A stretch of DNA of 64,000 nucleotides from Caryophanales bacterium. Its GTDB lineage: Bacteria; Bacillota; Bacilli; JARBTR01. The translations under genes were made by a program, and so were the position numbers. The notes under the pieces were generated by a model. That model did not search any database. It was not told the DNA's origin and was given only the letters and a program-made list of their open reading frames with translations. Location of the stretch: assembly GCA_029240105.1 (NCBI GenBank), contig JARBTR010000005.1:124001-188000 (forward strand). Direction: 5' to 3'. Of the stretch, positions 22,847 through 61,164 are shown piece by piece (position 1 is the first letter of the stretch; each line of letters opens with the position of its first letter).

Positions 22847-23731
22847 TTATCTCAAGAAATCAACTAAAGTAGGTTGGATTATTCTCGCCCCGACTGATAA
22901 AGCTGAGTTATAGACACTTTGTTGTTCGGTAAGTTGAGAATATGCTTGGGCAACATCCACAAATAATATATTTGACATCAATTCGGTAGTCGAATTTTCT
23001 AACCCTTCTAAACGGGAACTGTTTAATTCCATCCGATTCATTCGGGCACCTATATCAGAGCGAATTGCAAGTACATTATCAATATGGTCATCAATAGTAT
23101 CCAAACGATTCCCCGGATTAATACCAGAAGCAATATCATCAGTAATGTTTTTCAACAATTGAAACATTCCGCCGTTTTGATTAAATACTCGATCACCTGA
23201 CACATTGATTTGAACAGTTGAACCCTTACCAATTTGATAATTGATGGCTTCATTATTATTAATTACTTCAATAGGTGTCTTTGTTTTATCACATGGCGCT
23301 GATTGGGTTTCTGTACCAGCAAAAATATACCTTCCGCCAATATCAGAATTAGCTACATCTCCAAGCTGTTCACTCAATTGTTTAATCTCATCTGCAATCG
23401 CTTTAAATGCAGAAGAATCATTCGTATCACTTCCAGCTTTTACAGTTAGTTCACGAACACGATGCAGCACTTGTGTAACTTGATCCAAAGATTCATCAGT
23501 TGCTTGCAACCAACCAGTTGCATCGTTGGCATTCCTTTTATATTGATCTATTTCATTCAAAGTAGACTTAAAGAACATTGTTCGAACAGCAGCAATTGGA
23601 TCCTCTGAAGGTTTGTTAAACTTTTTACCAGATGCTATCTGCCGCTGTATTTTATCTAGCTTAGAATAATTTAGTTGTAAGTTTGTTAATAATGATTGGC
23701 TCATCATATTTTGGGTAATTCGAGAACTCAT
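22847..23731 (-). CDS. flgL: Hook-filament junction protein FlgL
   Basis: 294-aa flagellin-like junction protein. The N-terminus (MSSRITQNMMSQSLLTNLQL, then QRQIASGKKFNKPSEDPI) and the C-terminus (AYSQLTEQQSVYNSALSVGA) form the D0/D1 helices. It lies 38 bases after flgK in the usual flgM-flgN-flgK-flgL order. Confidence 0.95.
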   Translation of the reverse strand: MSSRITQNMMSQSLLTNLQLNYSKLDKIQRQIASGKKFNKPSEDPIAAVRTMFFKSTLNEIDQYKRNANDATGWLQATDESLDQVTQVLHRVRELTVKAGSDTNDSSAFKAIADEIKQLSEQLGDVANSDIGGRYIFAGTETQSAPCDKTKTPIEVINNNEAINYQIGKGSTVQINVSGDRVFNQNGGMFQLLKNITDDIASGINPGNRLDTIDDHIDNVLAIRSDIGARMNRMELNSSRLEGLENSTTELMSNILFVDVAQAYSQLTEQQSVYNSALSVGARIIQPTLVDFLR

Positions 23732-26888: not shown

Positions 26889-28466
26889 TTAATAGCCTTG
26901 CCCACTTGACATTTGCGAGCCTAACCACGAACTTTGAGAACTGTATTTTTGAAATGCCTTTTCCATAGCGGCAAATTGTCTATAATACCGATCTTCCAAT
27001 AGCTGGAATTTACTGGTTTCAGAGCCGATCTTTGTTTGAAGTCCAGTCAGTAATTTACCAATTGTACTTTGATCATATTGAGACGCCCCGCCAGCCCCAG
27101 CTTTAGTTGTTAGATTTTTAGCCACTTGAGAGATATGTTCAGTGATCGTGTTAAGCAAACCGCTCGTCCCATCAGTTGTTGTACCCGATTGATTAAATAA
27201 CTTTTGTACTCCATCAGGATCAGCTTGAATTGCTTCCTTTAACTTCTTTTCATCTACAGTTAATTTACCTTTATCTAAGTAATTCTGCGAAGAAATACCA
27301 ATCGAAGACAGAGAGTTATAAACACTTCCCGTGTTTACTTTAGAGTTCATAGTATTTCTTAAATTGTTTAAGAGATTACCAAGTATACTGTCACCACGTA
27401 ATAATCCACTTTTAGCCTTTGATTCCCATTGATCAATCTGTTTTTCACTCATCTCTTCCCGCTGTTCATCAGTAAGCGGAAGGTAGTCCTTATAGACTGG
27501 TTCATTAATTGATTTATTTAACTTACTTAAAATATCATTATAACTAGTAATGATGTCCTTGATATTTTTTACTACTGCATCATTATCTTGAGAAACATTA
27601 ACTGTTGCAGTAGTTGGCACCCCATTAGAATCAACGGTTGGACTTTTAAATGTCCAACTAATCCCCATAATTGTTGCAGTGTTTGAAGTTAGGGAAGTAA
27701 TTGGATTGCCATTAAATAAGATATTTGCATTTTGTCCACTTGCTGAACAAGTAGTAGTGGTACCTGCAGGCTGCCCGAGATACTTCTCTAAGAAAGTCTG
27801 CGCTGAAGCTGCATCTGAACCAGCTTGTACACTTACTCCAATCTTCTCCGTTACACCAGTGTTTTTAGTTTTAATAATAAGTTGCTTCAAATTAGAATCA
27901 TAAATTGCCTGCAAACCTAAGCTTTTACCAGAAACCGAATCTATTGCACTATTAATCTTGCTGACAATATCACTAATTTTATCTGTTGTAGGATTTATAT
28001 CTAACTTATAAGTCTTCGCAGGGTCATCATTAACCATTAAATTAAGACTAAAACTACCCGTCAGTGAAAAAGCACCTTGAGTATCAAGAGTTTTTGTAGA
28101 ATCAACAATTAAGTCTTTTCCAGTGAAGCTAGCCGATTGCGCTAACTGGTTAACTTGAATATTATAGGACCCGGCAACGGCGCCACCACTACCTGTTGCA
28201 GATATAGCATTAGGTTGGCTAGAATTAGTCGCAAAGGCATTAAATGTTGATGACAACTTTGCGTTAAATACAGTGGATCGGAAAGCAAATAAATCACTAT
28301 TCCATTGTCGATAACTTTCACTAAGCCACAAATTCTTTTGCTGCTTCTGTTTGATTTGATCGATTTTAGCCTGTTGACCAGCCATTAATTTTTTGACTAA
28401 TGTATCTGTATCCATTCCGGAAGCTATACCGGTTATTCTATTCAGTGAAGACGGATTGATTGACAT
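26889..28466 (-). CDS. fliD: Filament cap protein FliD (HAP2)
   Basis: 525-aa cap protein. The N-terminus (LNRITGIASGMDTDTLVKKL, about 8-27) and the C-terminal helix (QFAAMEKAFQKYSSQSSWLG) are characteristic. FliD folds flagellin monomers at the filament tip. It is transcribed alone from its own SigD promoter, unlike the fliD-fliS-fliT operon of B. subtilis. The ATG follows GGAGGAAA. Confidence 0.95.
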   Translation of the reverse strand: MSINPSSLNRITGIASGMDTDTLVKKLMAGQQAKIDQIKQKQQKNLWLSESYRQWNSDLFAFRSTVFNAKLSSTFNAFATNSSQPNAISATGSGGAVAGSYNIQVNQLAQSASFTGKDLIVDSTKTLDTQGAFSLTGSFSLNLMVNDDPAKTYKLDINPTTDKISDIVSKINSAIDSVSGKSLGLQAIYDSNLKQLIIKTKNTGVTEKIGVSVQAGSDAASAQTFLEKYLGQPAGTTTTCSASGQNANILFNGNPITSLTSNTATIMGISWTFKSPTVDSNGVPTTATVNVSQDNDAVVKNIKDIITSYNDILSKLNKSINEPVYKDYLPLTDEQREEMSEKQIDQWESKAKSGLLRGDSILGNLLNNLRNTMNSKVNTGSVYNSLSSIGISSQNYLDKGKLTVDEKKLKEAIQADPDGVQKLFNQSGTTTDGTSGLLNTITEHISQVAKNLTTKAGAGGASQYDQSTIGKLLTGLQTKIGSETSKFQLLEDRYYRQFAAMEKAFQKYSSQSSWLGSQMSSGQGY

Positions 28467-28769: not shown

Positions 28770-30698
28770 TTAACTCTGCATACTTTTCAACCATTTACAG
28801 TCTGGGAAGTGATGCAACGCAAGATTTACTATTAAAGACTTTTTCTCAACCTCAAATTCTTTTTTATTCATTATTTCAACCGCATATTTAAAGAATCTAA
28901 AATCGTATTGTTCCTTTTCTAGCGCTAATAAAATGTATTCTATAGCATCTTCTAAATACTCACATTGCATGAAACCAACAATGATATTTAAATACGCTTC
29001 GGAGTCAAGTTGATTTACATCACATTCATTATATAAGTCTATTGCTAAATCAGTAAATTCATATTGATAAAGTAGGTTCCCTATTCCTAAATTAATAGAA
29101 GTGTCAAAGTTGTTCTTTTTTAAAAGTAGTTTCTCAAACAGTTCATATCTTTGTAAATGAATACATCGCTCCAATAAAGCAATATAGAGTTTTTCATTTG
29201 GTTTAGAAGAAATGGAGTCTTTAGCTAAGAGCTCAAAAAATATCTTAGCTTCCTTATCGGGTACTAGATTATATAAAGTAACCAAAAAGTCTTTATTTGC
29301 TTCTAAAGCATAGATTGTTAAATCATACAAATCTATAAACCCAGTTTTCAACACCCCATCAAGATTTGTAATAGTTTCTACTTTTATAAAATCAGATAAT
29401 AGACTATAGTTTCCTATTAATTGACCAATTTTTATTTCTATAGATTTTTTTACAGTGGTTTCATCTTTAAGTTTTTCTAAATACTTTTGAGCTAAAAAAG
29501 CTTGATTTAATTTGGTTGAAACCCAAATCATATTAATAATATCTTGATGATCCTTTATCCACATTTTATCTTCAATGAATTGATAGATCTCCTCAACCGA
29601 TACGGATTTCAACATTATTTCTATGACTTTGTAAAGAATTTCTCTGGATTTGGTATTTATATTTAAAGCTTTTACGTAATGGTAAATTGCTTTATTAAAC
29701 TCTTTCTGTTCAAAATAAATTTTCCCAAGATACTGATGAGGATGAAATTCTGAAAAATCAATACTGGTAATGGTCTTAGAATAATAATCTTTATTATTCA
29801 GCAGATCCTCAAATTCTTCAATTGCCTCATCATATCGATGTTGCAGCATATATACATTTGCTTTTAAACATTTAAAGTCTGGTGAATGTGTAAAGTTTTT
29901 CCCCTTTTTATAAATCATATCCAGCGCTTCCTTATATCGTTCTAATGCTATTAAACAATTAACCGTTAGTACAATACAAAAGGGAACCCATGTAATTTGA
30001 ATATTTGGTTGTTTCTTATGAGCGGTTACATATGATTCTAAGGCTTTATTAACTTCACCAGCTGAAAAATATTCATTGCCCAGATTAAAATAATCAAAGG
30101 CAGTTCGAGCTGCAAGACTACTCTGTTTCTCAATTAAATCTTTATTTCTTTCACCTTTATTTTTTTCTTTTACCGTATTTTTGAGGTAACCTGAATGATA
30201 AAGAATTAAATTGGAACTACCTACAAGTAAATCTCCATTTTCTTTTTTTAATTGTTCATGAATTGTCCGAAAGAAATGAATGGAGGGGTTATTTTTATAA
30301 ATTCTTATACTTTTATGCTGTACGATTCTCTCAGCGTTCTCCCCAGTAAAATTATATATATTCACTTCAAAAGCATCGATAGTTTGTTTAATTTTCTTGA
30401 GCTCTTCTATTGCATTTTTTAGATTGTCTCCATCAACATATTCATCTGCATCAAGAACTAAGATCCATTTACCTGAAGCCTTAGATTGTGCAAAGTTACG
30501 TGCATCAGAAAAACTATTAGTCCACTCGAAATTGTATACATGACTAACATAGTTCTGTGCAATTTCTTTCGTTCTATCAGTTGAACCTGTATCTACAACA
30601 ATTATTTCATCTACTATATTGTGAACAGAATCTAGACAGCGTTTAAGCACCAGCTCTTCATTTTTTACAATTAAACACAATGATAAAAACGGTTTCAT
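28770..30698 (-). CDS. Glycosyltransferase family 2 with TPR repeats, candidate flagellin glycosyltransferase
   Basis: 642-aa cytoplasmic protein. Residues 1-200 form a GT-A domain of the SunS/GT2 type (SLCLIVKNEELVLKRCLDSV, DTGSTDRT, DxD as DAD at 83-85). The rest is helical tetratricopeptide-like repeats (for example AAYL/FNLGNEYFSAGEVNKALE). Enzymes of this layout glycosylate proteins or peptides. It lies directly behind hag and before fliD, which makes flagellin its likely acceptor. The start is the ATG after AAAGGGGAAA. No promoter is visible between it and the hag terminators, so it may depend on read-through. Confidence 0.82.
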   Translation of the reverse strand: MKPFLSLCLIVKNEELVLKRCLDSVHNIVDEIIVVDTGSTDRTKEIAQNYVSHVYNFEWTNSFSDARNFAQSKASGKWILVLDADEYVDGDNLKNAIEELKKIKQTIDAFEVNIYNFTGENAERIVQHKSIRIYKNNPSIHFFRTIHEQLKKENGDLLVGSSNLILYHSGYLKNTVKEKNKGERNKDLIEKQSSLAARTAFDYFNLGNEYFSAGEVNKALESYVTAHKKQPNIQITWVPFCIVLTVNCLIALERYKEALDMIYKKGKNFTHSPDFKCLKANVYMLQHRYDEAIEEFEDLLNNKDYYSKTITSIDFSEFHPHQYLGKIYFEQKEFNKAIYHYVKALNINTKSREILYKVIEIMLKSVSVEEIYQFIEDKMWIKDHQDIINMIWVSTKLNQAFLAQKYLEKLKDETTVKKSIEIKIGQLIGNYSLLSDFIKVETITNLDGVLKTGFIDLYDLTIYALEANKDFLVTLYNLVPDKEAKIFFELLAKDSISSKPNEKLYIALLERCIHLQRYELFEKLLLKKNNFDTSINLGIGNLLYQYEFTDLAIDLYNECDVNQLDSEAYLNIIVGFMQCEYLEDAIEYILLALEKEQYDFRFFKYAVEIMNKKEFEVEKKSLIVNLALHHFPDCKWLKSMQS

Positions 30699-30813: not shown

Positions 30814-31641
30814 TTATCCACGAAGTAATTGAAGAACTTGTTGTGGTTGTTGGTTAGCTTGAGCCAACATAGCTTGAGCAGCTTGAGAAAGGATACTAGC
30901 TTTAGATTGTTGCATCATTTCTTTCGCCATGTCTACGTCACGGATACGTGATTCAGCATTACTGATGTTTTCAGAAGAAGCATCAAGGTTATTTACTGTG
31001 TGCTCTAAACGGTTTTGAGTAGCACCCATTTGAGCGCGCTCATCGTTAACCAATTTAATAGCTGCATCAATTGTTGAAATAGCTGCAGTAGATACTGAAC
31101 TGCTTGTTGATAAGTTCACAGCATTAACTCCTAATGCAGTTGCATCCATATCAGCAAATGTTACTGTTAAAGTTTGAGTAGTGTTTGCACCAATTTGGAA
31201 TGTGAATGCACCAGTTGTACCACCAGTTGCATCAAGTAAGTTTTGTGTATTGAATTGAGTAGTTGTTGCAATTCTATCGATTTCAGCGATTAAGCTTGCG
31301 TTTTCTTTTTGAATCTCAGAACGATCTGCTCCTGTATTTGTATCATTAGAAGATTGAACTGCTAATTCACGCATACGTTGTAGGATAGAAGTTGTTTCGT
31401 TTAATCCACCTTCTGCTGTTTGAATCATAGATACAGCGTCTTGTGCGTTACGGCTAGCTTGATCTAAACCGCGGATTTGTCCTCTCATTTTTTCAGAGAT
31501 TGCAAGACCTGCTGCATCATCTCCTGCACGGTTGATACGAAGACCAGAAGATAATTTCTCCATAGATTTAGCTTGTGCTGCGTTGTTAACACCTAACTGA
31601 CGAAGTGAATTTGATGCCATCAAATTGTGATTGATTCTCAT
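30814..31641 (-). CDS. hag: Flagellin (Hag)
   Basis: Filament subunit of 275 aa. The conserved D0/D1 N-terminus (MRINHNLMASNSLRQLGVNN, then KLSSGLRINRAGDDAAGLAI) and the C-terminus (MLAQANQQPQQVLQLLRG) are intact. The short central region is Thr/Ala/Ser-rich and could carry O-glycans. The very strong AGGAGG lies in the loop of a small hairpin at 31646-31663. No SigD promoter is visible in the 98 bases between csrA and hag; the two SigD promoters upstream of csrA are the only good candidates. Confidence 0.97.
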   Translation of the reverse strand: MRINHNLMASNSLRQLGVNNAAQAKSMEKLSSGLRINRAGDDAAGLAISEKMRGQIRGLDQASRNAQDAVSMIQTAEGGLNETTSILQRMRELAVQSSNDTNTGADRSEIQKENASLIAEIDRIATTTQFNTQNLLDATGGTTGAFTFQIGANTTQTLTVTFADMDATALGVNAVNLSTSSSVSTAAISTIDAAIKLVNDERAQMGATQNRLEHTVNNLDASSENISNAESRIRDVDMAKEMMQQSKASILSQAAQAMLAQANQQPQQVLQLLRG

Positions 31642-31739: not shown

Positions 31740-32114
31740 TTAACTGGTAAACCTTAATGATTTGTGAGTTATTTGACGCTTTAAAGAATGATCAATCTGT
31801 TTTCCCTTAGGATATATTTCTTCACGAAAAACAGAAATTTCTTTTGGAGCATCAATCGCGAACCGTATTAAACCTGTCTCGGTCTGGATAACGCTAACTT
31901 TTATTGATTCACCAATTTGTATGGTTTCACCAATGATTCGAGCCTTTTTTTTAAATTTCTCCAAATTATTTGGAATTTGTTTGACTCTATTAAATTCAAT
32001 ATCCAAAGGAGCATCTATAGCAATCTCTAAGTTTGAACCTTTTTGGAGGAGGGTGATTTTAATTTCATCCACAATAATGACGGATTCCCCAACATCTCTG
32101 CCTATGATCAGCAT
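31740..32114 (-). CDS. csrA: Tandem-duplicated CsrA, single-chain translational regulator
   Basis: 124 aa from ATG 32114 (GGGGGAAG 7 bases upstream; a start at 32138 is less likely), against 61-75 aa for ordinary CsrA. Residues 1-48 are one CsrA unit (MLIIGRDVGESVIIVDEIKI and IAIDAPLDIEFNR). Residues 54-103 are a second (IIGETIQIGESIKVSVI, FAIDAPKEISVFREEIYPKG). A basic 20-residue tail follows. Unit 1 keeps strand 1 with the Arg6 equivalent but lacks the EE after the Arg44 equivalent. Unit 2 keeps REEI but its strand 1 is replaced by Lys-rich linker. CsrA normally acts as a homodimer that represses hag translation and is antagonised by FliW. It is transcribed from two SigD promoters and ends 98 bases before hag. 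Confidence 0.9.
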   Translation of the reverse strand: MLIIGRDVGESVIIVDEIKITLLQKGSNLEIAIDAPLDIEFNRVKQIPNNLEKFKKKARIIGETIQIGESIKVSVIQTETGLIRFAIDAPKEISVFREEIYPKGKQIDHSLKRQITHKSLRFTS

Positions 32115-32238: not shown

Positions 32239-32265
32239 TTATCGGATTTTGTTGAATTTTGTTTA
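32239..32265 (-). promoter_or_regulatory. Proximal SigD promoter of csrA-hag
   Basis: Minus strand TAAA (32262-32265), 15 bases, TCCGATAA (32239-32246). It lies 125 bases before the csrA ATG. Confidence 0.85.
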
Positions 32266-32379: not shown

Positions 32380-32406
32380 TTATCGGTGGTATCAAAATAT
32401 AGTTTA
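32380..32406 (-). promoter_or_regulatory. Distal SigD promoter of csrA-hag
   Basis: Minus strand TAAA (32403-32406), 15 bases, ACCGATAA (32380-32387). It lies just after the terminator of the sugar operon, 141 bases upstream of the proximal promoter. Confidence 0.85.
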
Positions 32407-32421: not shown

Positions 32422-32457
32422 AAATAAAAAAGAGACGAAATTATTCGTCTCTTTTTG
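32422..32457 (-). terminator. Terminator of the CDP-sugar/glycosyltransferase operon
   Basis: A 9-bp stem AGAGACGAA / TTCGTCTCT with loop ATTA, flanked by A and T runs on both sides, so it may work in both directions. It lies 139 bases after the rfbG stop. Confidence 0.88.
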
Positions 32458-32595: not shown

Positions 32596-33666
32596 TTACA
32601 TGTAAACTAACTGCTTATTGATTATATCAAGAATTTGGTTTTCCATTACTTCTTTAACTTTGCCACTTTCAAACGCATGTACAAATTCGATGGTTTTATA
32701 AACCGCTTCATCAAGTGTGGTGGATGGTTCCCATCCAAGCTCACTTTGAATCTTTTCAATACTTAACATCAGAAGTGGGTTTTCATGGTATACATTCATA
32801 CTTGTATCCACTTCCCATGATAACCCTTTTCCCCAGTGCTTGCAGAACAAATCGACTAGTTGATAATTTGGTAAACAATCGTTAGGTAATGGACCAATAT
32901 TATAACTAGTAAATACCTTAGGCAGATTATAATGTTTTTCGATCATAAATAAATAAGCATGAACTGCGTCTAAAACAAACTGATAAGGACGTACTGCGTG
33001 TGGATTTCGTATAATAATCGGTCCACCATTCTGAGCAAACCGAATACAGTCCGGAATGATTCTGTTTTCTGAAACATCTCCTCCACCAATTACATTCCCA
33101 CTTCTAGCTGTAATGACTGTTAAATCTCTTGAATGAAAAAAAGAATTATAATAGCTACTAGTCACTAACTCTGAACAGGCTTTACTGTCAGCATAAGGAT
33201 CATGCCCACCCAATTTTTCATCTTCCAAAAAGGCGTGCGACCCACAAACTGGCTTGTAAACTTTATCCGTTGTTACATTTAAAAAAAGCTTAGTTGAAGT
33301 GTTTTTTCTGATACATTCCAGAACATTTACAGTGCCCATGACATTTACTTCATAAGTTTCTCTTGGCCGATGGTAACTTTCAATAACTAGTGGTTGAGCA
33401 GCCATATGAATAACAATTTCAGGTTCAAACTCTATAAACAATTTTTCCAAACTAGCTATATCTCGTATATCACCTATAACATGTTTTTCTAGTAAATTCA
33501 CACTATCAGAAATGTAGAAAAGCGAATCACTTCTTTCAGGAAATAGAGAATATCCTGCTATTCTAGCACCTTGCATCGAAAGCATCTTACACATCCAACT
33601 TCCCTTAAATCCTGTGTGACCTGTTACTAAAACCTTTTTATTTTTAAAAAAATCCATCAACATCAC
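32596..33666 (-). CDS. rfbG: CDP-glucose 4,6-dehydratase
   Basis: 356-aa short-chain dehydrogenase that converts CDP-glucose to CDP-4-keto-6-deoxyglucose. The Rossmann motif VTGHTGFKGSW (about 14-24), the catalytic region NVTTDKVY (about 130-137) and the YADSKACSE (YxxxK) motif at about 158-166 match the RfbG type; TGHTGFKGSWL is characteristic of CDP-glucose dehydratases. It is the last gene of the operon started by rfbF, its substrate supplier. The ATG at 33666 follows AAGGAATG. Confidence 0.9.
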   Translation of the reverse strand: MMLMDFFKNKKVLVTGHTGFKGSWMCKMLSMQGARIAGYSLFPERSDSLFYISDSVNLLEKHVIGDIRDIASLEKLFIEFEPEIVIHMAAQPLVIESYHRPRETYEVNVMGTVNVLECIRKNTSTKLFLNVTTDKVYKPVCGSHAFLEDEKLGGHDPYADSKACSELVTSSYYNSFFHSRDLTVITARSGNVIGGGDVSENRIIPDCIRFAQNGGPIIIRNPHAVRPYQFVLDAVHAYLFMIEKHYNLPKVFTSYNIGPLPNDCLPNYQLVDLFCKHWGKGLSWEVDTSMNVYHENPLLMLSIEKIQSELGWEPSTTLDEAVYKTIEFVHAFESGKVKEVMENQILDIINKQLVYM

Positions 33667-33706
33667 ATTCCTTGAATTTAGTCATCACAGTCACGCATTA
33701 TCAATT

Positions 33707-35503
33707 TTACATTTTCACAAATAGACTATTAATTTTTGAACTCGTTAGCCTTAAATCTAATTGATCCACAGGTAGCTCTGGGAATATCCTACTCCAACTT
33801 TCAACTTCCGTTTCACTTAAATTCAATGCCTTAGAAAAAATATTTCCTTGGAGTACAAATCCTGCATTAATAATAGTCTGAATAATTCCCTCTGCATTTG
33901 ATCCATTCATATAACTCAATCGATTCATTGTGTTACGAATATTCTCAATAAATCCAGGATTGTCAATTGCAATAGCTAGACTTGCTCCTTTTTTAGCGAG
34001 TTGATAGATACTCTTAAAATACTCATCAAGCCCTTGCCCATTTAAAGAAGGAATTTGTTCAATCAGAATATAATCAAAAATATCTTCCTTAAAAACGTCA
34101 ATGATCGTTTTATTTTTATCTGCTAAGTGTATGTCATCTGAAATATCTTTCAGATCTTTTAAATACTTTGCTTCCTCAGTCCAAGCATGCACATGACATT
34201 TCACCTGGGAAAGATTTTTAAAACGGTTCATTATATATTGCGGTGTACAACCACATTTCGAATTAACCGCAAGTAAATGTTTGTCTCCACTATCACTAGG
34301 GGTACCCAAAATATTTGCCAAGTTAACCTCTGGGCGAGCATCATTCCATGCATCAATACCCCATTTTTCATTAAAAATCACACGGCCTTTATTAATTGAA
34401 TCGTGGTTGACGTGTTCAGCCCCAGTTGTAACATGACCATAATGATAGACAAACGTATCATTGCAAAATATGAGTTTATATCCTGCTCTTCTTATTTTAA
34501 ATGAAATATCATCATCCGCAAATTCACCAAAATAATAGCGAGGATCATAATAACCGATGTATTCAAGAAGTTTTGTATATGAGCACAAAACATTTGGTAG
34601 TAGAACTTGTCTTTCTTCCCACTTCAAAGGATTAGAAACATTATAACTTTCCGCAAAAGCTTGCATTTCTCCCATGTCTTCAAACTGGACATTTACCTGT
34701 TGAAAGTTCGAAATGAAGTTACTTGCCGGTGAAACATATCCATAATTCGGATTACTTTCAATACAATTCATTAAATTCGATAGCCAATTTTTTGTAAAAA
34801 TAAAATCATTACATAGAACAGCTGTATATTTACCTTGCGCAGCAGCGATTCCAATATTCATTCCAACGCCTGCACCGCAATTATATGGCAAATAAAATGC
34901 CTTAGCACCTTCAATACTCTCAAAATATTCTTGCGTTTCATCCGTTGAACCGTTGTTTACTAAGATTAATTCATACTCAACATGATCAGTGTACTTCAAT
35001 ACACTTTCAACACATTGTTTTGTGTATTCGAGTTTATTGTAGGCGAGGATAACAATACTTACTTTGCAACGGTAAGAATGCTGATCTATGCTTCCCTTAT
35101 CAAATTCCTTCATTTCCGGGTAAAGAATAGGTCGCATTTGACTACTTGTATGCTTTTCAAACGTTACAAGTAGTGTTTTTATTAATACATCTATTAAAGG
35201 TAGTGTGTATTCTATGAAAATAGGAAGCTTAAATTCTGAGTTACTTTCATCTAAATTTCTTTCAACCCAATAAGAAAGGTTTCCGAAAACATCCTTACAA
35301 CGGTTCATCGAAAATAGGTATTGATTTGCCTCAATAAAATAAACAATTTCCTCTGAAAGAGATAAAAAATCTTCTAATAGGAAATCGTGTAATACACCCG
35401 TATTTGCCTGTTCTTTTAGATAATTGGCGCATTCTAAAAGAGATTCAAGTGCATCAAATTTAGGTTGAAAATCTACATGTTCCGTGTTGATCAAAAGTAC
35501 CAC
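33707..35503 (-). CDS. Glycosyltransferase family 2 with N-terminal helical and C-terminal Rossmann-like regions
   Basis: 598-aa protein. Residues ~1-140 are helical and unrecognised. About 147-390 is a GT2 catalytic domain (KVSIVILAYNKLEYTKQCVE, NNGSTDET, LCNDFIF as acceptor/metal site, FADDDISFKIRRAGYKL). About 405-598 looks like a partial methyltransferase-type Rossmann region (FDYILIEQIPSLNGQGLDEY) without a recognisable SAM motif. It lies between the acyltransferase and rfbG genes, so it probably transfers the CDP-linked sugar; flagellin is the likely acceptor by location. Confidence 0.8.
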   Translation of the reverse strand: MVLLINTEHVDFQPKFDALESLLECANYLKEQANTGVLHDFLLEDFLSLSEEIVYFIEANQYLFSMNRCKDVFGNLSYWVERNLDESNSEFKLPIFIEYTLPLIDVLIKTLLVTFEKHTSSQMRPILYPEMKEFDKGSIDQHSYRCKVSIVILAYNKLEYTKQCVESVLKYTDHVEYELILVNNGSTDETQEYFESIEGAKAFYLPYNCGAGVGMNIGIAAAQGKYTAVLCNDFIFTKNWLSNLMNCIESNPNYGYVSPASNFISNFQQVNVQFEDMGEMQAFAESYNVSNPLKWEERQVLLPNVLCSYTKLLEYIGYYDPRYYFGEFADDDISFKIRRAGYKLIFCNDTFVYHYGHVTTGAEHVNHDSINKGRVIFNEKWGIDAWNDARPEVNLANILGTPSDSGDKHLLAVNSKCGCTPQYIMNRFKNLSQVKCHVHAWTEEAKYLKDLKDISDDIHLADKNKTIIDVFKEDIFDYILIEQIPSLNGQGLDEYFKSIYQLAKKGASLAIAIDNPGFIENIRNTMNRLSYMNGSNAEGIIQTIINAGFVLQGNIFSKALNLSETEVESWSRIFPELPVDQLDLRLTSSKINSLFVKM

Positions 35504-35535
35504 TCCAATTTTGCTATATCTTTATTTTTATCTAT

Positions 35536-36234
35536 TTACCAATTTACCTTAGGCAAATCGGTGCTGATTGGCACATTAAAATACTGCTGTGTATATGGTG
35601 GTTTTTCATGTAATTTCATACAAAGTTTTCCTTCATCGTTTGTAAATACAACATGGTTATCCAAGATGTTTTTTTGGTAGACAAAGCTTCTCGCACCAAC
35701 TGAAACACCATCTCCAACAGTACAATCCCCTATTATACTAGCACCTGATAGAATTCCGAATCCTTTGCCGATTTTAGGATAAACATATTTTTGCGCACCA
35801 ACAGTAGTATTGTGAGCCGCGACAAAAAAGTTATCGATTTGAGCTTTTCCAATCACTGTTCCAACGCAATGAAGAAACATAAACACATCTGGTAACTCGG
35901 TATTATACATGCAACACAACGAATTCAATGTTTTATTTAGTGAAAATAATTTATTGCAGAGTGGTTCATTTTTAGAAACACGCCACAATGAATTAGAAAG
36001 TAACCAAATAAATTGTGCGTATTGATCTGAATGCAGATGATTAAAATTAGGCACACCATCCTTGTGGTATCCATTATAAGAAATAAATGAAAAACAGTAT
36101 TCAAGACGGCTTAACGCCATATCAAACGCAAGATCCACATCTGAACCTTCTAACACAAACTTATCCGGAAAGAAGTGGTTAAGCTGTGTAGATACAAAAC
36201 TGTGCAACTCATTTTTTGATAGCGAAATCTGCAT
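35536..36234 (-). CDS. Left-handed beta-helix (hexapeptide) acyltransferase
   Basis: 232-aa protein with an N-terminal helical part and a C-terminal hexapeptide-repeat helix (about 130-200: VGTVIGKAQIDNFFVAAHN, IGKGFGILSGASIIGDCTVG). It resembles serine O-acetyltransferase-type enzymes, but its operon contains sugar genes, so O- or N-acylation of a sugar is more likely. The acceptor is unknown. Confidence 0.75.
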   Translation of the reverse strand: MQISLSKNELHSFVSTQLNHFFPDKFVLEGSDVDLAFDMALSRLEYCFSFISYNGYHKDGVPNFNHLHSDQYAQFIWLLSNSLWRVSKNEPLCNKLFSLNKTLNSLCCMYNTELPDVFMFLHCVGTVIGKAQIDNFFVAAHNTTVGAQKYVYPKIGKGFGILSGASIIGDCTVGDGVSVGARSFVYQKNILDNHVVFTNDEGKLCMKLHEKPPYTQQYFNVPISTDLPKVNW

Positions 36235-36256
36235 AAATGTCTACCCCTATATTTCA

Positions 36257-37312
36257 TTAATCAACTTTTGATTGGTTTTCATAATAGTGAACTGTATCAA
36301 CAACTGCGTCTCGGAAGATCGTTTGAGGCTTCCATCCTAATGAAGCTAATTTTTCAATCCCATAATACTTCTGACAATCCAAATTTTGTTTTTGAGGGAG
36401 TGAATCAATTCCTTTTAAGTTTCTGTCAGAAAAAATTTCAACAAGTTGGTGTGCAAATGCACCGATTGTCATTGAATTCGAGGGGTCAGCAACGTTGTAA
36501 GCTTCTGCCGGTTTCCCGTGTAACAAAACATGCAAGCATCCTAAAACAGCATCCATGATATATAAAAATGATCGCACTGCTTTACCATCTCCATTTAATT
36601 TTGGAGCATCACCTTTGAGAATATCGGAAACAAAATCAGCTTGCGCCATTTTTGTATCTAAATTCATACCTGGTCCAAAAACATGAGACAACCTTGCAAT
36701 TTTAGCTGGGACGCTCTTTTGACGTGCATATGCAACACACAATGCCTCCCCAGCTCTCTTTGCTTCTATATAGCACGCTCCTACTTCAGTTGGGGAAATT
36801 CCCTCAAAAGCAGACTCATTAGAGCCGGCATTAGCAGCCGTTCCTGGTTTTCCATATACGCCTGTACTACTTATATATAAAAAGGAATGACATCCTTTTG
36901 CAGCGAATTCCAATAGATTTCTAGTCCCAATTATGTTGGCATCTAAAGTCTCAATAGGATTTAATTGATGAAAAACAGGACTCGAAGGACTTGCTGCATG
37001 AATAATGTAATCTACATTTTGTAAATTTTCCAATGAACTTGTAACTTCAAAATCAAGAAACGTATGGTTTGGGTCGTTTAAAAAAGTAGTATATAGATGC
37101 TGAATACGAGTACAATCTCTAGCGGCAGAGATTACTTTTATTGAGCTTTCATTTTTAAGGTCGTTCATTTCATTATAAGCCAATAAAAATTTACTTAATG
37201 TAGACCCTAGATGACCTCCTGCCCCAGTAATGAGAACACTTCTCCCATGTAATTCTGGATGCAACCCCCAACTCTTAACCGTTTCTCTTATCTGCTTTTC
37301 AAAACTTCTCAA
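36257..37312 (-). CDS. NAD-dependent sugar epimerase/dehydratase family protein
   Basis: 351-aa extended short-chain dehydrogenase. The nucleotide motif VLITGAGGHLGS (GxxGxxG) is at about 26-37, SSTGVYG at about 147-153 and the catalytic YIEAKRAG (YxxxK) at about 181-188. With CDP-4-keto-6-deoxyglucose made by RfbG and a 3,5-epimerase next door, it could be the 4-ketoreductase or a C-4 epimerase that finishes the sugar. The exact reaction cannot be read from sequence. It overlaps the epimerase gene by 4 bases. Confidence 0.8.
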   Translation of the reverse strand: MRSFEKQIRETVKSWGLHPELHGRSVLITGAGGHLGSTLSKFLLAYNEMNDLKNESSIKVISAARDCTRIQHLYTTFLNDPNHTFLDFEVTSSLENLQNVDYIIHAASPSSPVFHQLNPIETLDANIIGTRNLLEFAAKGCHSFLYISSTGVYGKPGTAANAGSNESAFEGISPTEVGACYIEAKRAGEALCVAYARQKSVPAKIARLSHVFGPGMNLDTKMAQADFVSDILKGDAPKLNGDGKAVRSFLYIMDAVLGCLHVLLHGKPAEAYNVADPSNSMTIGAFAHQLVEIFSDRNLKGIDSLPQKQNLDCQKYYGIEKLASLGWKPQTIFRDAVVDTVHYYENQSKVD

Positions 37313-37848
37313 TTCTTACACTCTCCAATATATTGCCAGCTTCTATCTTTTTCTGAGATTATTTTTATCTTATTAGGCCATACAATTCCGATGGATGGAT
37401 CATCAAATCGCAAGCCTCCCTCAGAACCTGGAGTATACACTTCCGTAACTAAATAATGAATCTCAGCATGATCTGTTAAAGTTAGATAGCCATGCGCAAA
37501 GCCTTTTGGTACGTAAAGCATTCGGTAATTGTCTGCACTTAATTCGTACCCGACCCATTGAAGATAAGTTGGAGATTCTTTTCTTAAATCAACAATCACA
37601 TCATAAATGGATCCACGTGTACAGCGAATAAGTTTATCCTCAGCGTGAGGCTGTTTCTGAAAATGTAGACCCCGCAAAATACCCTTGTAATGATTATGTG
37701 CAATATTTGACTGAACAAAATCCGAACATAAACCGTACTCTGCAAATTCAGAATAATCTGTTAGTCTTGAAAAAAAACCTCGATCATCCTTCTTAAATTC
37801 TGGTGTAATTAAGTAAGCTCCCTCTAAGGCTAACTTTTCAAATATCAT
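37309..37848 (-). CDS. RmlC/RfbC-like 4-keto-6-deoxyhexose 3,5-epimerase
   Basis: 179-aa cupin enzyme. The conserved block (GILRGLHFQKQPHAEDKLIR, about 56-75), with its catalytic His, and YVPKGFAHGYLTL (about 111-123) are intact. The usual substrate is dTDP-4-keto-6-deoxyglucose. Because no dTDP pathway genes are present and CDP-glucose genes flank it, a CDP-linked substrate is more likely here. Confidence 0.88.
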   Translation of the reverse strand: MIFEKLALEGAYLITPEFKKDDRGFFSRLTDYSEFAEYGLCSDFVQSNIAHNHYKGILRGLHFQKQPHAEDKLIRCTRGSIYDVIVDLRKESPTYLQWVGYELSADNYRMLYVPKGFAHGYLTLTDHAEIHYLVTEVYTPGSEGGLRFDDPSIGIVWPNKIKIISEKDRSWQYIGECKN

Positions 37849-37911
37849 TTTTACTCTCCTTAGATGTTTGTCTAAACGTCATGCGTAATCCAAAATTAAC
37901 TTCTTAAAGTT

Positions 37912-38691
37912 TTACTTCCAAACTTTCCATGGTGCTTTTCCTTTTTTCCAAATTTCATTCAACTGCATTTGATCACGCTGTGTATCCATACTTGCAAAGA
38001 AATCATTATGCATGTACGCACGTACCTCGCCCTGTCTAGTTAAACGTTCCATAGGACCAGTTTCCCAGACAGTCAGGTCATCTTCTATTTCTTCAATAAC
38101 ACTTGGTTCACAAACGAAGAATCCAGCACTAATTAATCCATCTCCGCCAATTTTCTTCTCCATGAAACCAGTAACTTCACCATTATTTCCAACCGAGATA
38201 CTTCCGTACCTACCAGCCGGATTTACTGCGCTTACTGTAACTTTTTTACCATGACTTTTGTGGAATTCTACTAATTTATCAATTGGAATATTTGACACAC
38301 CATCCCCATAGGTAAGCAAAAATGGTTCATTATTCAAATATTTAGAGATTCGTTTTATACGACCACCCGTCATCGTGTTTAACCCAGTGTCTGCCAGAGT
38401 AACATTCCAAGATTCTGCGCTTGTATTTAAAATGTTTCTTGAAACCGAAGTGCCACTAAAATTGTATTGAACATCCGAATGGTTTAAATAATAATGGTCG
38501 AAATACTCTTTTATAATTACCCCTTTATAACCTAAACAGATAACAAAATCATTAAAGCCATATGAAGAATAAATTTTCATAATATGCCACAAAATTGGGT
38601 TATCTCCAATCTCAACCATAGGCTTAGGTTTCAAATGACTTTCCTCACTTATTCTTGTACCAAATCCACCAGCTAGAATGACAACTTTCAT
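37912..38691 (-). CDS. rfbF: Glucose-1-phosphate cytidylyltransferase
   Basis: 259-aa nucleotidyltransferase making CDP-glucose from glucose-1-phosphate and CTP. The N-terminal signature VVILAGGFGTRISEESHLKP (about 3-22) with KPKPMVEIGDNPILWHIMK, and LTYGDGVSNIP (about 124-134), define the RfbF type. It is the first gene of the operon. The upstream 130 bases are AT-rich without a SigD box, so expression may be SigA-dependent. Confidence 0.93.
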   Translation of the reverse strand: MKVVILAGGFGTRISEESHLKPKPMVEIGDNPILWHIMKIYSSYGFNDFVICLGYKGVIIKEYFDHYYLNHSDVQYNFSGTSVSRNILNTSAESWNVTLADTGLNTMTGGRIKRISKYLNNEPFLLTYGDGVSNIPIDKLVEFHKSHGKKVTVSAVNPAGRYGSISVGNNGEVTGFMEKKIGGDGLISAGFFVCEPSVIEEIEDDLTVWETGPMERLTRQGEVRAYMHNDFFASMDTQRDQMQLNEIWKKGKAPWKVWK

Positions 38692-38820: not shown

Positions 38821-38852
38821 TTAAGAAAAGGGACGAGTATAATTCGTCCCTT
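38821..38852 (-). terminator. Terminator of flhO-flhP
   Basis: A 9-bp stem AAGGGACGA / TCGTCCCTT with a 7-base loop, followed by TTCTTAAAATT on the minus strand, 11 bases after the flhP stop. Confidence 0.82.
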
Positions 38853-38862: not shown

Positions 38863-39720
38863 TTATTTAACTATATTATTAGCAATTCCCAACATTTCAT
38901 CTGCAAAAGAAACCGCTCTGGCATTCATTTGGAAGCCTCTTTGAGTAGTGATCAAATCTGTCATTTCTCGTCCCAAATCCACGTTTGAACCCTCGAGGAA
39001 ACCAGAGGTAACTTGAGACTCATCTTGTGTGAGGTTACGCACAAAATTCGCGAGATTTGCACCAGGTGTTAGCGCCCCAGTATTAATTGAATATTCATTA
39101 CCGCCAAGATTTTGTAATAGACTCGGATTTTGAATTTCTACAAGTCCAACTCTTTGAGCAGATGTGTATGTATCCCCTAACCCGTTTTTGTTCTTTAGAA
39201 GTATTTGACCATTTGCCCCAATCTGAACTTCATTGTTTTCATTCAATCTAATGGGCGTCCCGTTTTGGTCTAGCAACAGACCACCATTTGCATTAACTAA
39301 ATGATAACTACCTGGCTGATTTGGATCTGGACTTAAATGGAAGTTCCCATCACGAGTAAAACGAATTTCTCTAGCTCCACCCTCTGTTGATGAAGGGTAA
39401 CTAACCTGAAAAAAGCCGCTTCCATTAATCATTAAATCGAACGGGTTTTTAGTTTCTAATAACTGGCCCTGTTCCATGTTAAGCTTAGTAAGACCAGTAC
39501 GACTACCGTATCCTACTCTCAGACCGTTAGGTGTTAACCTTCCGACTTCTTGGTCAGCACGTGATTGATTATTAATTTGATTAGTTAGAAGTTCCGAAAA
39601 ACTTTGGTCACGTCGCTTATAACCCGTTGTATTAACATTGGCAATATTGTTTGCATTTGTATCCAATTTTTGCTGAAATGCACGCAAAGCTCCTGTGGAG
39701 ATGTATAAAGATGTACTCAT
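38863..39720 (-). CDS. flhP: Flagellar rod/hook-basal body protein FlhP (FlgF/FlgG family)
   Basis: 285-aa distal-rod protein. N-terminal LDTNANNIANVNTTGYKRRD (about 18-37), the FlgF/G middle domain with FDLMINGSGFFQV, and the C-terminal SNVDLGREMTDLITTQRGFQ are all present. It follows flhO by 27 bases, the B. subtilis order. Confidence 0.9.
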   Translation of the reverse strand: MSTSLYISTGALRAFQQKLDTNANNIANVNTTGYKRRDQSFSELLTNQINNQSRADQEVGRLTPNGLRVGYGSRTGLTKLNMEQGQLLETKNPFDLMINGSGFFQVSYPSSTEGGAREIRFTRDGNFHLSPDPNQPGSYHLVNANGGLLLDQNGTPIRLNENNEVQIGANGQILLKNKNGLGDTYTSAQRVGLVEIQNPSLLQNLGGNEYSINTGALTPGANLANFVRNLTQDESQVTSGFLEGSNVDLGREMTDLITTQRGFQMNARAVSFADEMLGIANNIVK

Positions 39721-39747
39721 TTCCTATGACTCCTAATCTTCACAAAT

Positions 39748-40638
39748 TTATTGGTTAATCGAGCCTGTACTGTTTAATTTTTGTAGTGATTCGTCGTAGA
39801 CTGAGATCACCTTTTGATTGGCTGCATAGGCTTTAACTGTCATCATCATATCCGAAATCGTTTGCCCAGCGTCAACGTTAGATTGTTCGATATAACCATG
39901 CTCTAACGAAACCCCTGGATTGGTTTGTCCAGCATCTTGAATAAATGGAACTGGAGTAGCCGATTGATAGACATTTCCACCCATTCTAATTAGTTGTAAT
40001 GGATTTTGAACGACAACAATTCCAATTTGCCCAGCCATTCTTGTATTGGATTGATCATTTGCTTTGACCATTAAATGGCCAGTAGGAGTTATGCTAAAAT
40101 TCTCCTTACTAATTTCATCTGAAATAGTGATTGGTTGGTGATCAGCCCCTAATACTCGATAGCCATCAGCAGTTACTAGATTGTTGTTTGCATCCAGATC
40201 AAATTTACCATCCCTGGTATATCCAACTGTACCATTTGGAAGTTGTACAGCAAAGAAAGCAGAGGGTTTCACTTGACGCCCATTAACAATTTGCACTGGT
40301 ATACTCTCGTCATTAATCGCAATATCCAAAGGGTTATTCGTTTCTACAAGCTGACCCTGAGAAAAATTCGGGACACGCTCTTGTGCATATACACCAGTAG
40401 TTAACTCTCCAATCGGAACTCCAACCGAAGTGGCTTTACCCATTGATTGACTAGATGAGATGCCACCTGATTTAAAACTTTGAACACGATTAAGTAATAG
40501 GTTTGGAAAAGCACGCATTTGCGAATCATCTTTCTTAAATCCCGGTGTTTGTACGTTTGCAAGATTATTCGACAATGTTGCTTGTCTACGTTCTAAAGAA
40601 AACATTCCTGAAGCCGCAGTATATAAACCTCTTATCAT
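39748..40638 (-). CDS. flhO: Flagellar rod protein FlhO (FlgF/FlgG family)
   Basis: 296-aa rod protein beginning MIRGLYTAASGMFSLERRQA with the NNLANVQTPGFKKDD motif and the C-terminal SNVDAGQTISDMMMTVKAYA. It pairs with FlhP. A TCCGATAA -10-like motif lies at 40727-40734, but the spot where a SigD -35 should be does not match, so the promoter is unsettled. Confidence 0.9.
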   Translation of the reverse strand: MIRGLYTAASGMFSLERRQATLSNNLANVQTPGFKKDDSQMRAFPNLLLNRVQSFKSGGISSSQSMGKATSVGVPIGELTTGVYAQERVPNFSQGQLVETNNPLDIAINDESIPVQIVNGRQVKPSAFFAVQLPNGTVGYTRDGKFDLDANNNLVTADGYRVLGADHQPITISDEISKENFSITPTGHLMVKANDQSNTRMAGQIGIVVVQNPLQLIRMGGNVYQSATPVPFIQDAGQTNPGVSLEHGYIEQSNVDAGQTISDMMMTVKAYAANQKVISVYDESLQKLNSTGSINQ

Positions 40639-58435: not shown

Positions 58436-59899
58436 TTATCCTAATATATCTTTTATATATGTATTATTCAGCCAATAACATTGTTTCGTTATTCTTCTTC
58501 CATCTGGCAATAAAACTTTGTCACTTCCATCTCTTGCTTTTGGTCGTATATGTGCAACACCATTGAAACCACTTTTAGGTAGATTGTTAGATTCTATTAA
58601 CTTTCCACCTTTTTCTATGTACTTTATCTCTAAGCTTTTTTCTAATTTTTCTCTTAGGTCTACCCAAAGTTGTTTTATCTCTTTTTCAATTGTTTCTATT
58701 GGCATATTCCACAGTTTCACACCTTTGAAATAAAGTTTTCTAATTGAATTTTGGAGAACTGTCTCCTTATATTCAAAAATTACGAATAGAAATTTCGTTT
58801 CAGCAAATCGATATCGGATAAAACTATTTTCCCATTCTTCATTTACTAACTCATCAAACTTTATAGTTTCAAAAGACATGTGTTCTTTTGGTTTTCCATT
58901 TGGTTCTAATCTAATTGTTTTAAATTGTATATTAGCTTTTGAGAATTCTTCTATTTTCTCGAGTTTTGTTCCTTTAATTCCTAACAATGCACTAATCAAT
59001 TCCGGAACAAATCCCTTTGATTTAACATTTAGATTAACACCTATTTTTTCGGCTATTTCATAATCTGTTTGCCCCATATATGGTTCGAATTTATCTAATA
59101 AAATATTATCCAGTGTTTTACTTTTTAGTTCATTTGCATTGGTAAAACTAATCAGTTTTTCTTTGTATATGTTCTGTCTTACTAAAGATGTCATATAAGA
59201 CTGTTTCAGTGAATACGCCCTTTGCATTGCTTTAATATTTGAAAATGGTTGACCCCTTAAAGATTCTTTTGTTGCACCTTTAGTACAAGCCCCCAAATAG
59301 TTCGTATCACCTTCTGAAATTTCATGGGCCTTTCCAATCCTTATCTTTGAAACTATTGTTTCCCAATCTTTCTTAATAACCTCAAGGTCACTAGTTGAAA
59401 ATCTATGTAACATTGTATAAGTAATAGGATATTCCTCTTTATTTACATCAGGTATCCATTCATAGAAAAATAGCATCAACTTCTCGTTTTTCTTCCAAAA
59501 ACTTGATGAATAAAACTCAGTGTTAGCTTCTTTCATATAATCTATAATATTTAATACAAGCCTTTCTTTAGCCGAGAGACTTCCATTTTTATTTCTTTTA
59601 AAAGGAGTTACTTTTAGTTCAACTCCAAGTTCTTCAAAATCTGGCCTTGCCTGAGAATTAATTTCATAACCAAAATAACTTTCTTCAATAAATTGTCCTA
59701 ATCCACCTTTATTTCCTAAATTTAATAATCTGTCTGATTTGCCTAGTTGACCAAAGGTTTTCCCTACTGCTCCCTTAGAAAAAGCAACTAACTCTTCTTC
59801 TGTTCCAAACTTCACTGATATCACATCTTTCAAATAATTTCCAACAAGCTCATTATAATCTATAAGAAAAATACTGCCTAGGATAATACTAGGCAGCAT
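58436..59899 (-). CDS. Type II restriction endonuclease, Sau3AI family (GATC)
   Basis: 487-aa protein homologous along its length to R.Sau3AI (489 aa). The MutH-like active site is visible as RPDFEELGVELKVTP (Asp87, Glu94, Lys96). Shared blocks include SAKERLVLNIIDYMKEAN, GKAHEISEG, AYSLKQSYMTSLVR and the C-terminal KQCYWLNNTYIKDIL. R.Sau3AI cuts before GATC, so GATC is the expected target. The ATG at 59899 overlaps the methylase end by 22 bases, has a poor ribosome binding site and is followed at once by a hairpin, so a later start is possible. Confidence 0.92.
   Translation of the reverse strand: MLPSIILGSIFLIDYNELVGNYLKDVISVKFGTEEELVAFSKGAVGKTFGQLGKSDRLLNLGNKGGLGQFIEESYFGYEINSQARPDFEELGVELKVTPFKRNKNGSLSAKERLVLNIIDYMKEANTEFYSSSFWKKNEKLMLFFYEWIPDVNKEEYPITYTMLHRFSTSDLEVIKKDWETIVSKIRIGKAHEISEGDTNYLGACTKGATKESLRGQPFSNIKAMQRAYSLKQSYMTSLVRQNIYKEKLISFTNANELKSKTLDNILLDKFEPYMGQTDYEIAEKIGVNLNVKSKGFVPELISALLGIKGTKLEKIEEFSKANIQFKTIRLEPNGKPKEHMSFETIKFDELVNEEWENSFIRYRFAETKFLFVIFEYKETVLQNSIRKLYFKGVKLWNMPIETIEKEIKQLWVDLREKLEKSLEIKYIEKGGKLIESNNLPKSGFNGVAHIRPKARDGSDKVLLPDGRRITKQCYWLNNTYIKDILG
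59874..59896 (-). promoter_or_regulatory. Hairpin at the methylase/endonuclease junction
   Basis: The 8-bp perfect arms CTGCCTAG (59874-59881) and CTAGGCAG (59889-59896) have a 7-base loop. On the mRNA the hairpin begins right after the candidate endonuclease ATG and includes the methylase stop codon region. It could limit endonuclease translation. Confidence 0.5.
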
Positions 59900-61164
59900 T
59901 CATTTTTAACTGTATCTTTTTCTAAGTTTTCTATTTCCAGCAATCTTTTTCCCATTTTCGTTATTAGTCCAACTACTAAAGCATTACCCATACAGAAATA
60001 TCTCATCCTATTAGGCATACCTTCCGTCCACCCTTTTGGGAATCCATTTAATTGTTCACATTCTTCTGGAGTTAGGAATCTCCATCTATCTGTTCCCGGA
60101 TGAAAAACAACGTGTGTGCTTCTATTTATAGTTCCTTCACTTGTTAACATAGTTCTTGCTGGTTTACTTACATCATCTGGACACGACATTCCGCCCTCTG
60201 AAAATGTGTATTTATGACCACTCTTTGAAGTTCGTTCGATTTTTTTTGCGCTTTTCATAGCAAAAATCTTTCTCTTTTGATCATCGTTCAGAAATAACTT
60301 TTCATCAATCTTATTAATATCTTTTTCTAATATAGTTTCTAATGGTGTCTCTTTTTGTTTCTCAGGAACTGCTTCTACTGTAGTAACTTCCCCATTTAAC
60401 ATAACTCCAGAATTATAAAAATTATTAGAAAAACTTTCGGAAATTTCTACTATGTCTTCTGGCAATATAAATTGGGCACTTTTATTTCCTTTTTGAATTT
60501 TTGTTTTTTCTATTTCGCCGGTTTTAAAAACATCTCTTAGAACTGGAAATATAGGTGCAAAAAAACCAGTAAATTTTAATTGGGTTTCTGGATAGAATTC
60601 ATTTACATTTTTAAAAATACTGTCTTTTTTATATGCAAATATAAACACACGTCTTCTGCGTTGTACAAAACCGTAGTCAGCTGCATTTATTACTCGCCAT
60701 TCAACGTTATATCCTTCATCTCTAAATGTTGCTAACATAATTGCAAAGTCACGACCACGTTGTTTGGATGGAGATTTAAGTAATCTATCAACATTCTCTA
60801 ATAGAACATATTTTGGTTTATATTGGTTTACAAAACGTTTAATTTCCCAAAAAAGAACTCCTTTATGTCCTTCAATACCCTTTTCACCAGATAAACTGCG
60901 TGCTACTGAATAGTCTTGACACGGAAACCCACCCACAATTAAATTTGGCGAATCTGGTATATCATTAAAATCGACTTGTGCTATATCCTGATTCGAATGG
61001 AGACTTGGTTTTACAAATTTAGTTGAGTAACAATTAAAAGCATGTTGCACCTTTTTAGAGGGCTCCCATTGATTTCCCCATATTATATTAAATTCATCGC
61101 TAGCATTTTCTAGGCCAAACCTAAATCCGCCTACACCTGCAAATAATTCAACAACTTTCATCAT
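59878..61164 (-). CDS. DNA (cytosine-5) methyltransferase, M.Sau3AI type
   Basis: 428-aa C5 methylase. Motif I ELFAGVGGFRFGLE (6-19), motif IV with catalytic Cys82 (GGFPCQDYSVARS), motif VI ENV (123-125), motif VIII QRRRR (168-172) and the C-terminal motifs IX-X (ERTSKSGHKY onward; GNALVVGLI). With the adjacent Sau3AI-like endonuclease it should protect GATC by cytosine methylation. ATG 61164 or 61161 can serve as start (AAGGATG upstream). Its promoter carries GATC sites. Confidence 0.93.
   Translation of the reverse strand: MMKVVELFAGVGGFRFGLENASDEFNIIWGNQWEPSKKVQHAFNCYSTKFVKPSLHSNQDIAQVDFNDIPDSPNLIVGGFPCQDYSVARSLSGEKGIEGHKGVLFWEIKRFVNQYKPKYVLLENVDRLLKSPSKQRGRDFAIMLATFRDEGYNVEWRVINAADYGFVQRRRRVFIFAYKKDSIFKNVNEFYPETQLKFTGFFAPIFPVLRDVFKTGEIEKTKIQKGNKSAQFILPEDIVEISESFSNNFYNSGVMLNGEVTTVEAVPEKQKETPLETILEKDINKIDEKLFLNDDQKRKIFAMKSAKKIERTSKSGHKYTFSEGGMSCPDDVSKPARTMLTSEGTINRSTHVVFHPGTDRWRFLTPEECEQLNGFPKGWTEGMPNRMRYFCMGNALVVGLITKMGKRLLEIENLEKDTVKNECCLVLS

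Follow-up and report, generated by a model that had tools for sequence, protein, structure and literature searches.

A CDP-sugar operon in the flagellar cluster of a Caryophanales bacterium is a probable flagellin glycosylation island

Introduction

Most known flagellin glycans are built from nonulosonic acids or from sugars activated with deoxythymidine (dTDP), uridine (UDP) or guanosine diphosphate (GDP). Cytidine diphosphate (CDP) sugars are treated in three papers, cited here from excerpts, that describe the systems closest to ours. Genes for CDP-4-keto-6-deoxyglucose are reported from flagellin glycosylation islands (FGIs) of four enterobacterial strains (PMC4875605), and genes for CDP-paratose from the island of Clostridium butyricum (PMC13317340). 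For the capsule of Campylobacter jejuni HS:41 it has been proven that a CDP-specific 3,5-epimerase and a C4-reductase act after RfbF- and RfbG-type enzymes, the product depending on the epimerase (PMC12369002). Here we analyse a stretch of 64,000 nucleotides from a Caryophanales bacterium (contig JARBTR010000005.1 of assembly GCA_029240105.1, positions 124,001 to 188,000; hereafter the window) and a six-gene operon at its positions 38691-32596 on the minus strand. Judged from its sequence, the operon would be a flagellin glycosylation island with a CDP-derived 6-deoxyhexose, a reading to which we assign a probability of about 0.78.

Like the island of C. butyricum DSM 10702, the operon places rfbF and rfbG together with transferases in a flagellar region; unlike that island, where RfbH and RfbS lead to CDP-paratose, it carries an RmlC-type epimerase, another short-chain dehydrogenase/reductase (SDR) and no RfbH (PMC13317340). 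With FGI type 23 of the Enterobacteriaceae it shares genes for CDP-4-keto-6-deoxy-D-glucose inside a flagellin glycosylation island, but that type is Gram-negative, and 'rmlC' is absent from the main text describing it (PMC4875605). The CDP-6-deoxy-L-altrose / D-fucose pathway of C. jejuni HS:41 comprises the same types of cytidylyltransferase, CDP-glucose 4,6-dehydratase, 3,5-epimerase and C4-reductase, all of them assayed, whereas those of the operon are predicted; it serves the capsule rather than flagellin and includes a pyranose-furanose mutase (PMC12369002). No such mutase is found among the six open reading frames (ORFs), the rest of the genome not having been searched for one. The RmlABCD route to dTDP-L-rhamnose follows the same four-step logic with an RmlC-family enzyme, but the operon uses CDP and its SDR is not RmlD.

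In the open-licence literature we found no description of an island of this epimerase type, i.e. with rfbF, rfbG, rmlC and the acyltransferase. Compared with the published CDP flagellin islands, the difference is that an epimerase branch replaces RfbH and that the terminal SDR is swapped. The initial annotation of this DNA had spoken of a filament glycan of unusual CDP origin; the CDP origin is upheld by curated protein models, whereas 'unusual' has to be toned down, as CDP genes in flagellin islands are already in print (PMC4875605, PMC13317340).

Results and Discussion

The operon and its predicted CDP-sugar route

Six minus-strand ORFs with intact frames fill positions 38691-32596, separated by -4 to 63 bp (one 4-bp overlap). 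In the order of transcription they encode RfbF, an RmlC-type epimerase, an SDR enzyme, a hexapeptide-repeat acyltransferase, a family 2 glycosyltransferase (GT2) and RfbG. An intrinsic terminator with a 13-pair stem and a T-rich tail follows rfbG after 140 bp (32427..32456, minus strand), and a terminator-like stem, recognised by eye and absent from the list of the terminator scan, separates rfbF from the upstream flagellar genes (38828..38852, minus strand). By ORFs and profile scans, this set of genes for sugar nucleotides and glycosyltransferases is flanked by structural genes of the flagellum: the upstream ORFs (38863-40638) are presumably of the flagellar rod/hook type, as named from their sequence starts, and downstream on the same strand stand csrA, hag, a GT2 protein with tetratricopeptide repeats (GT2-TPR) and fliD, followed by FlaG, FlgM, FlgN and FliS. 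The one-strand operon terminated before csrA-hag and embedded in the flagellar cluster, as it had been annotated, is therefore borne out by the ORF list, profile scores and stem. The G+C content of the six genes (0.34-0.38) lies within the range of their neighbours (0.29-0.39; window 0.344), and base composition does not support a recent foreign insertion.

The first and last genes define the activated sugar. Both rfbF (glucose-1-phosphate cytidylyltransferase, 259 aa, 37912..38691; TIGR02623, 364.6 bits against a cut-off of 300.25) and rfbG (CDP-glucose 4,6-dehydratase, 356 aa, 32596..33666; TIGR02622, 368.4 against 278.45) exceed curated equivalog cut-offs, and the nearest solved relative of each is a named CDP-glucose enzyme (1tzf, E 1.6e-90, and 1rkx, E 1.9e-82, respectively). 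Their predicted product is thus most likely CDP-4-keto-6-deoxyglucose, in support of the initial annotation. Profile scans of the six ORFs found neither RfbH nor a NeuB/PseI-type synthase as in nonulosonic-acid Maf systems. The host assembly, on which all searches of the own genome were run, comprises 2.48 Mb in 15 contigs and is 84.9% complete. It holds 11 matches to the DegT family (PF01041), and the three strong ones score 154, 116 and 141 bits against an RfbH cut-off of 423, so that none is RfbH. As a control, the same model readily recognises RfbH in the loci of Clostridium gasigenes (613 bits), Halanaerobium saccharolyticum (735) and Fonticella tunisiensis (616). A CDP-3,6-dideoxyhexose, already considered unlikely for want of RfbH, is thereby rejected as the product. 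The RmlABCD dTDP-rhamnose route is rejected as well, since the nucleotidyltransferase is RfbF and not RmlA and the SDR scores 18.8 bits against an RmlD cut-off of 224.05.

The second gene encodes an RmlC-type epimerase for the C3 and C5, C3 or C5 position of nucleoside diphosphate-4-keto-6-deoxysugars (179 aa, 37309..37848, minus strand; TIGR01221, 192.7 bits, cut-off 155.75). Residues His62, Lys72, Tyr132, Tyr138 and Asp168, which we take to be the RmlC active-site residues, are invariant in all seven aligned proteins. A second, separate RmlC of the genome (C12:318737-319255) scores higher (258.9 bits) and is 45% identical to the operon protein by alignment (48% by BLAST). Its neighbours, judged from protein starts, are presumably rmlA-, rmlD- and rmlB-like genes of a polysaccharide locus, and we reject the idea that the operon RmlC is the genome's only dTDP-rhamnose epimerase. 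Because the HS:41 product depends on the epimerase (PMC12369002, in the part cited), several 6-deoxyhexoses come into question: the sugar could be 6-deoxy-L-altrose-, L-rhamnose-, 6-deoxy-L-talose-, 6-deoxy-D-gulose- or 6-deoxy-D-allose-like, a choice that sequence cannot make.

Comparable islands in other Bacillota

None of the 60 relatives compared with the host is closer than the same class, where RfbG exceeds its cut-off in 42 of 398 genomes (own included). This class is probably the one to which Alicyclobacillus belongs, as the rfbG locus of one member shares 86% identity over 1.4 kb with a record of Alicyclobacillus tolerans. We inspected 43 rfbG places in the other class genomes (42 above the cut-off and G206 below it) together with some 10 kb of flanking sequence in each direction, as far as the contig reached; six further below-cut-off places, each with an internal stop codon, were left out. 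Flagellar genes, i.e. hag, fliD, flgL or flgK by tblastn, occur at only four of the 43 (L167, L169, L171 and L184; L-numbers label the fetched genomic stretches), and rfbF/rfbG alone therefore do not imply flagella. A GT2 match above 300 bits is present at three places (L167, L171 and L184), all of them flagellar, while RmlC is matched at eight and the acyltransferase at two (L167 and L171).

Together with L195 from another part of the phylum, these three loci form a set of four flagellar islands sharing rfbF, rfbG, the GT2 (38-47% identical by BLAST) and RmlC (48-51%), and three of them (L167, L171, L195) also have the acyltransferase family. In L167, three hag copies, a glycosyltransferase (GT), a GT-TPR and the GT2 precede rfbF, rfbG, a C-methyltransferase, rmlC, an SDR, a methyltransferase and the acyltransferase, which are followed by flaG-like, fliD and fliS-like genes. 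L171 reads rfbF, acyltransferase, SDR, methyltransferase, rmlC, GT2, rfbG and then flaG-like, fliD and fliS-like; the stretch L199, which overlaps it, adds three hag copies and a GT-TPR. L184 has flgK, flgL, hag and fliD, then GT2, rfbF, rfbG, a C-methyltransferase-like ORF and rmlC, and in L195 fliW, csrA and GTs stand before GT2, rfbF, rfbG, C-methyltransferase, rmlC, acyltransferase, SDR, two hag copies and fliD. Thus hag and fliD are both present in L167, L184 and L195, and fliD in L171. L169, a flagellar island too, contains rfbF and rfbG but has no match to the operon RmlC, GT2 or acyltransferase. The four sister islands differ from the operon in their SDRs and in carrying a Methyltransf_13/14 C-methyltransferase (L167 and L195 by domain scan, L184 by protein start) or, in L171, another methyltransferase. 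Among 80 named loci of very different lengths hag is matched in two, L083 (C. gasigenes DSM 12272) and L100 (H. saccharolyticum), and in both rfbF, rfbG and RfbH lie no more than about 9 kb away from flagellin genes. These are likely CDP-3,6-dideoxyhexose flagellar islands; for one strain of C. gasigenes other than that of L083, no glycosylation genes were predicted in the flagellar region (PMC13317340, in the part cited).

Because the operon lies in the flagellar cluster and has four comparable flagellar islands, the role in flagellin glycosylation proposed earlier for it is supported. From the genes, their order, their families and their recurrence we infer the catalytic steps, the acyl group, the acceptor and the order in which the sugars are transferred as follows. 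RfbF would convert cytidine triphosphate (CTP) and glucose-1-phosphate to CDP-glucose and RfbG would turn this into CDP-4-keto-6-deoxyglucose, whereupon the RmlC-type enzyme may invert C3 and/or C5 and the SDR enzyme may reduce C4 to give a CDP-6-deoxyhexose, which the acyltransferase probably O-acetylates. The GT2-TPR protein beside hag would recognise flagellin and attach the first sugar to Ser/Thr residues in the central, exposed part of the protein, the operon GT2 adding the CDP-derived sugar. All steps are expected to take place in the cytosol, before flagellin export.

More tentatively, and with the odds somewhat against it, the islands may represent a class of flagellar glycan that recurs in Bacillota and has not been described before: a 6-deoxyhexose activated with CDP, epimerised by RmlC and O-acylated by a new family resembling serine acetyltransferases. 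CDP activation, epimerase and GT2 would be its constant part, whereas the last tailoring steps (C-methyltransferase, SDR type) would vary from lineage to lineage. If true, filament glycans would here be made by a modular system whose diversity arises from the exchange of tailoring enzymes around an unchanging CDP core. Should a CDP-epimerase module recur in Bacillota filaments, it would open a further route to rare 6-deoxyhexoses, offer a defined set of enzymes to assay and connect flagellar glycans with an acyltransferase family that has been little studied. How flagellin glycosylation is viewed in general would not change.

Evidence against a flagellin glycan and alternative explanations

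Several observations weigh against the assignment to flagellin and to this glycan. A pattern scan of the window found no sigma-28-type promoter before rfbF, unlike csrA-hag, fliD, flaG and flgM, and the operon lacks the C-methyltransferase of L167, L184 and L195. None of the SDRs in the four sister islands is an orthologue of its own SDR, with which they align only in part (19-30% identity, E 6e-12 to 3e-7). Finally, 39 of the 43 rfbG loci are without a flagellar gene in the fetched stretch; a 40% identical GT2 stands beside rfbF, rfbG and RfbH in F. tunisiensis (L091), where no flagellar gene was recognised in 21 kb, and L155 combines GT2 (168 bits), rfbF, rfbG and RmlC with no flagellar genes nearby.

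Because of the missing orthology, the last step has to be regarded as a guess. The SDR enzyme (351 aa, 36257..37312, minus strand; PF01370, 129.7 bits), which we consider a probable C4-reductase, has a Rossmann motif, ISSTGVYG and YIEAK (YxxxK) and reaches no equivalog cut-off, the best being TIGR01181 with 92.4 of 365.1 bits. Its closest solved relatives are UDP-glucuronate decarboxylases. In the alignment to 2b69, however, the Glu that we take to be functional in the decarboxylase is replaced by Gly, for which reason a UDP-glucuronate decarboxylase is rejected. As a query the SDR matches six of 398 genomes (own included), and the 4 kb loci of the other five contain no rfbF, RmlC or strong rfbG match. 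Since it matches the sister-island SDRs only weakly, the islands seem to have swapped their terminal step. The island might hence serve flagellin with an SDR that is not a C4-reductase but, for example, a 4-epimerase or the enzyme of another sugar, reduction taking place elsewhere or the 4-keto sugar being the donor. The absence of an equivalog match, the decarboxylase-like relatives, the SSTGVYG motif without the aligned Glu and the divergence from the sister SDRs all favour this alternative; yet an SDR is part of the same gene group in all four sister islands, and one would expect a reductase or transaminase to be necessary for turning a CDP-4-keto sugar into a usual donor. We therefore consider it unlikely, if the most serious of the competing explanations.

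Less probable still is that the CDP sugar goes into a polymer of the wall, capsule or S-layer and that only chance has placed the operon in the flagellar cluster. The 39 rfbG loci without a flagellar gene in the fetched stretch speak for such a destination, and CDP-6-deoxy sugars are known as components of capsules (PMC12369002, in the part cited). Against it, neither a flippase nor a polymerase or transporter is encoded in the operon, the genome possesses distinct polysaccharide loci with the second rmlC and its rml-like neighbours, and the GT2 above 300 bits is confined to flagellar loci among the 43, L195 being flagellar likewise. Behind a helical N-terminus, the operon GT2 (598 aa, 33707..35503, minus strand; PF00535, 79.6 bits) has a GT-A domain with a DDD stretch that is invariant in all six aligned members. 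Methyltransf_23 is matched in two of the six but not in the operon protein, whose C-terminal domain may be methyltransferase-like. Its structural model is of low confidence (predicted local distance difference test, pLDDT, 59.0) and its fold matches add nothing beyond GT-A. From enterobacterial flagellin islands, GT2 enzymes that carry methyltransferase domains have been reported (PMC4875605, in the part cited).

The acyltransferase (232 aa, 35536..36234, minus strand), of the left-handed-helix type, just passes the Pfam Hexapep cut-off (27.4 bits against 27). A single-sequence search found only distant proteins besides the protein itself (12 of 61 genomes, own included). A profile made from the alignment of three islands, run on the 398 class genomes and on a draw of 398 genomes from the phylum (own in both), found the family in three class genomes (own included), all in flagellar islands, and in three more genomes of the phylum draw, namely L195, L196 and L197. 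The family is thus present in six genomes, in four of them (own included) in a flagellar island. All five relatives in other genomes sit among sugar genes, and L196 and L197 look by their protein starts like nonulosonic-acid-type islands. In the predicted model (pLDDT 79.6) the best 50 fold matches are all serine acetyltransferases (E 3.9e-6). Two positions aligned with His residues of CysE presumably correspond to its active-site roles: His122, aligned with the first, is kept in six of six members, while the His of the His-Pro-Lys motif is Tyr in all six, which argues for an acceptor other than serine. An enzyme outside the glycan route, e.g. a serine acetyltransferase for cysteine, is suggested by the modelled fold over most of the length, but is the least probable alternative given this substitution, the sugar-gene neighbourhoods of all five relatives and a score of 35.4 bits against the curated CysE cut-off of 210.65.

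The flagellar surroundings of the operon

The presumed acceptor is the flagellin Hag (275 aa, 30814..31641, minus strand; PF00669 and PF00700), in which 22 of the 85 residues between 131 and 215 are Ser/Thr. Flagellin_N is matched twice in the genome, by hag and by an FlgL-type ORF at 22847-23731. Between hag and fliD (26889..28466, minus strand; FliD_N and FliD_C) lies the gene for GT2-TPR, a presumed flagellin-binding transferase (28770..30698, minus strand; PF00535, 86.6 bits, plus TPR). GT2-plus-TPR proteins have been proposed as flagellin glycosyltransferases, and a flagellin-recognising role of the protein next to hag would fit the role given to them by others (PMC13317340, in the part cited). 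A sigma-28-type promoter pattern (TAAA-N13..17-CCGATA) matches eight times in the window where 0.83 matches are expected (minus strand; 26083, 26755, 28548, 32240, 32381, 42066, 55743 and 57856). Such promoters stand before flgM, flaG, fliD and csrA-hag, the last having two in tandem (32240..32265 and 32381..32406).

The gene annotated initially as csrA is corrected here: the ORF encodes two CsrA domains in a single chain of 124 residues (31740..32114, minus strand), with a likely start at 32114 supported by start codon and ribosome site, perhaps a natural single-chain pseudo-dimer. As a query it matches 178 of 329 class genomes (own included); among the matches listed, only that of the own genome is full-length, the others covering one half or a gapped part. 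The phrase tandem CsrA was not found in any paper in a literature search. FliW, the usual partner of CsrA, was not found in the incomplete host genome, and fliW adjoins csrA in L195.

Two further loci are recorded as minor observations. A possible fusion is encoded on contig C12 of the own genome: a 515-residue ORF (L034:6690-8237) begins with a stretch similar to the membrane part of a sugar-phosphate transferase (weak EPS_sugtrans match), behind which comes a LegC/PseC-like aminotransferase. At the edge of the flagellar cluster in the window, a Sau3AI-family restriction endonuclease (572.9 bits) stands beside a DNA cytosine methyltransferase (58436-61164, minus strand).

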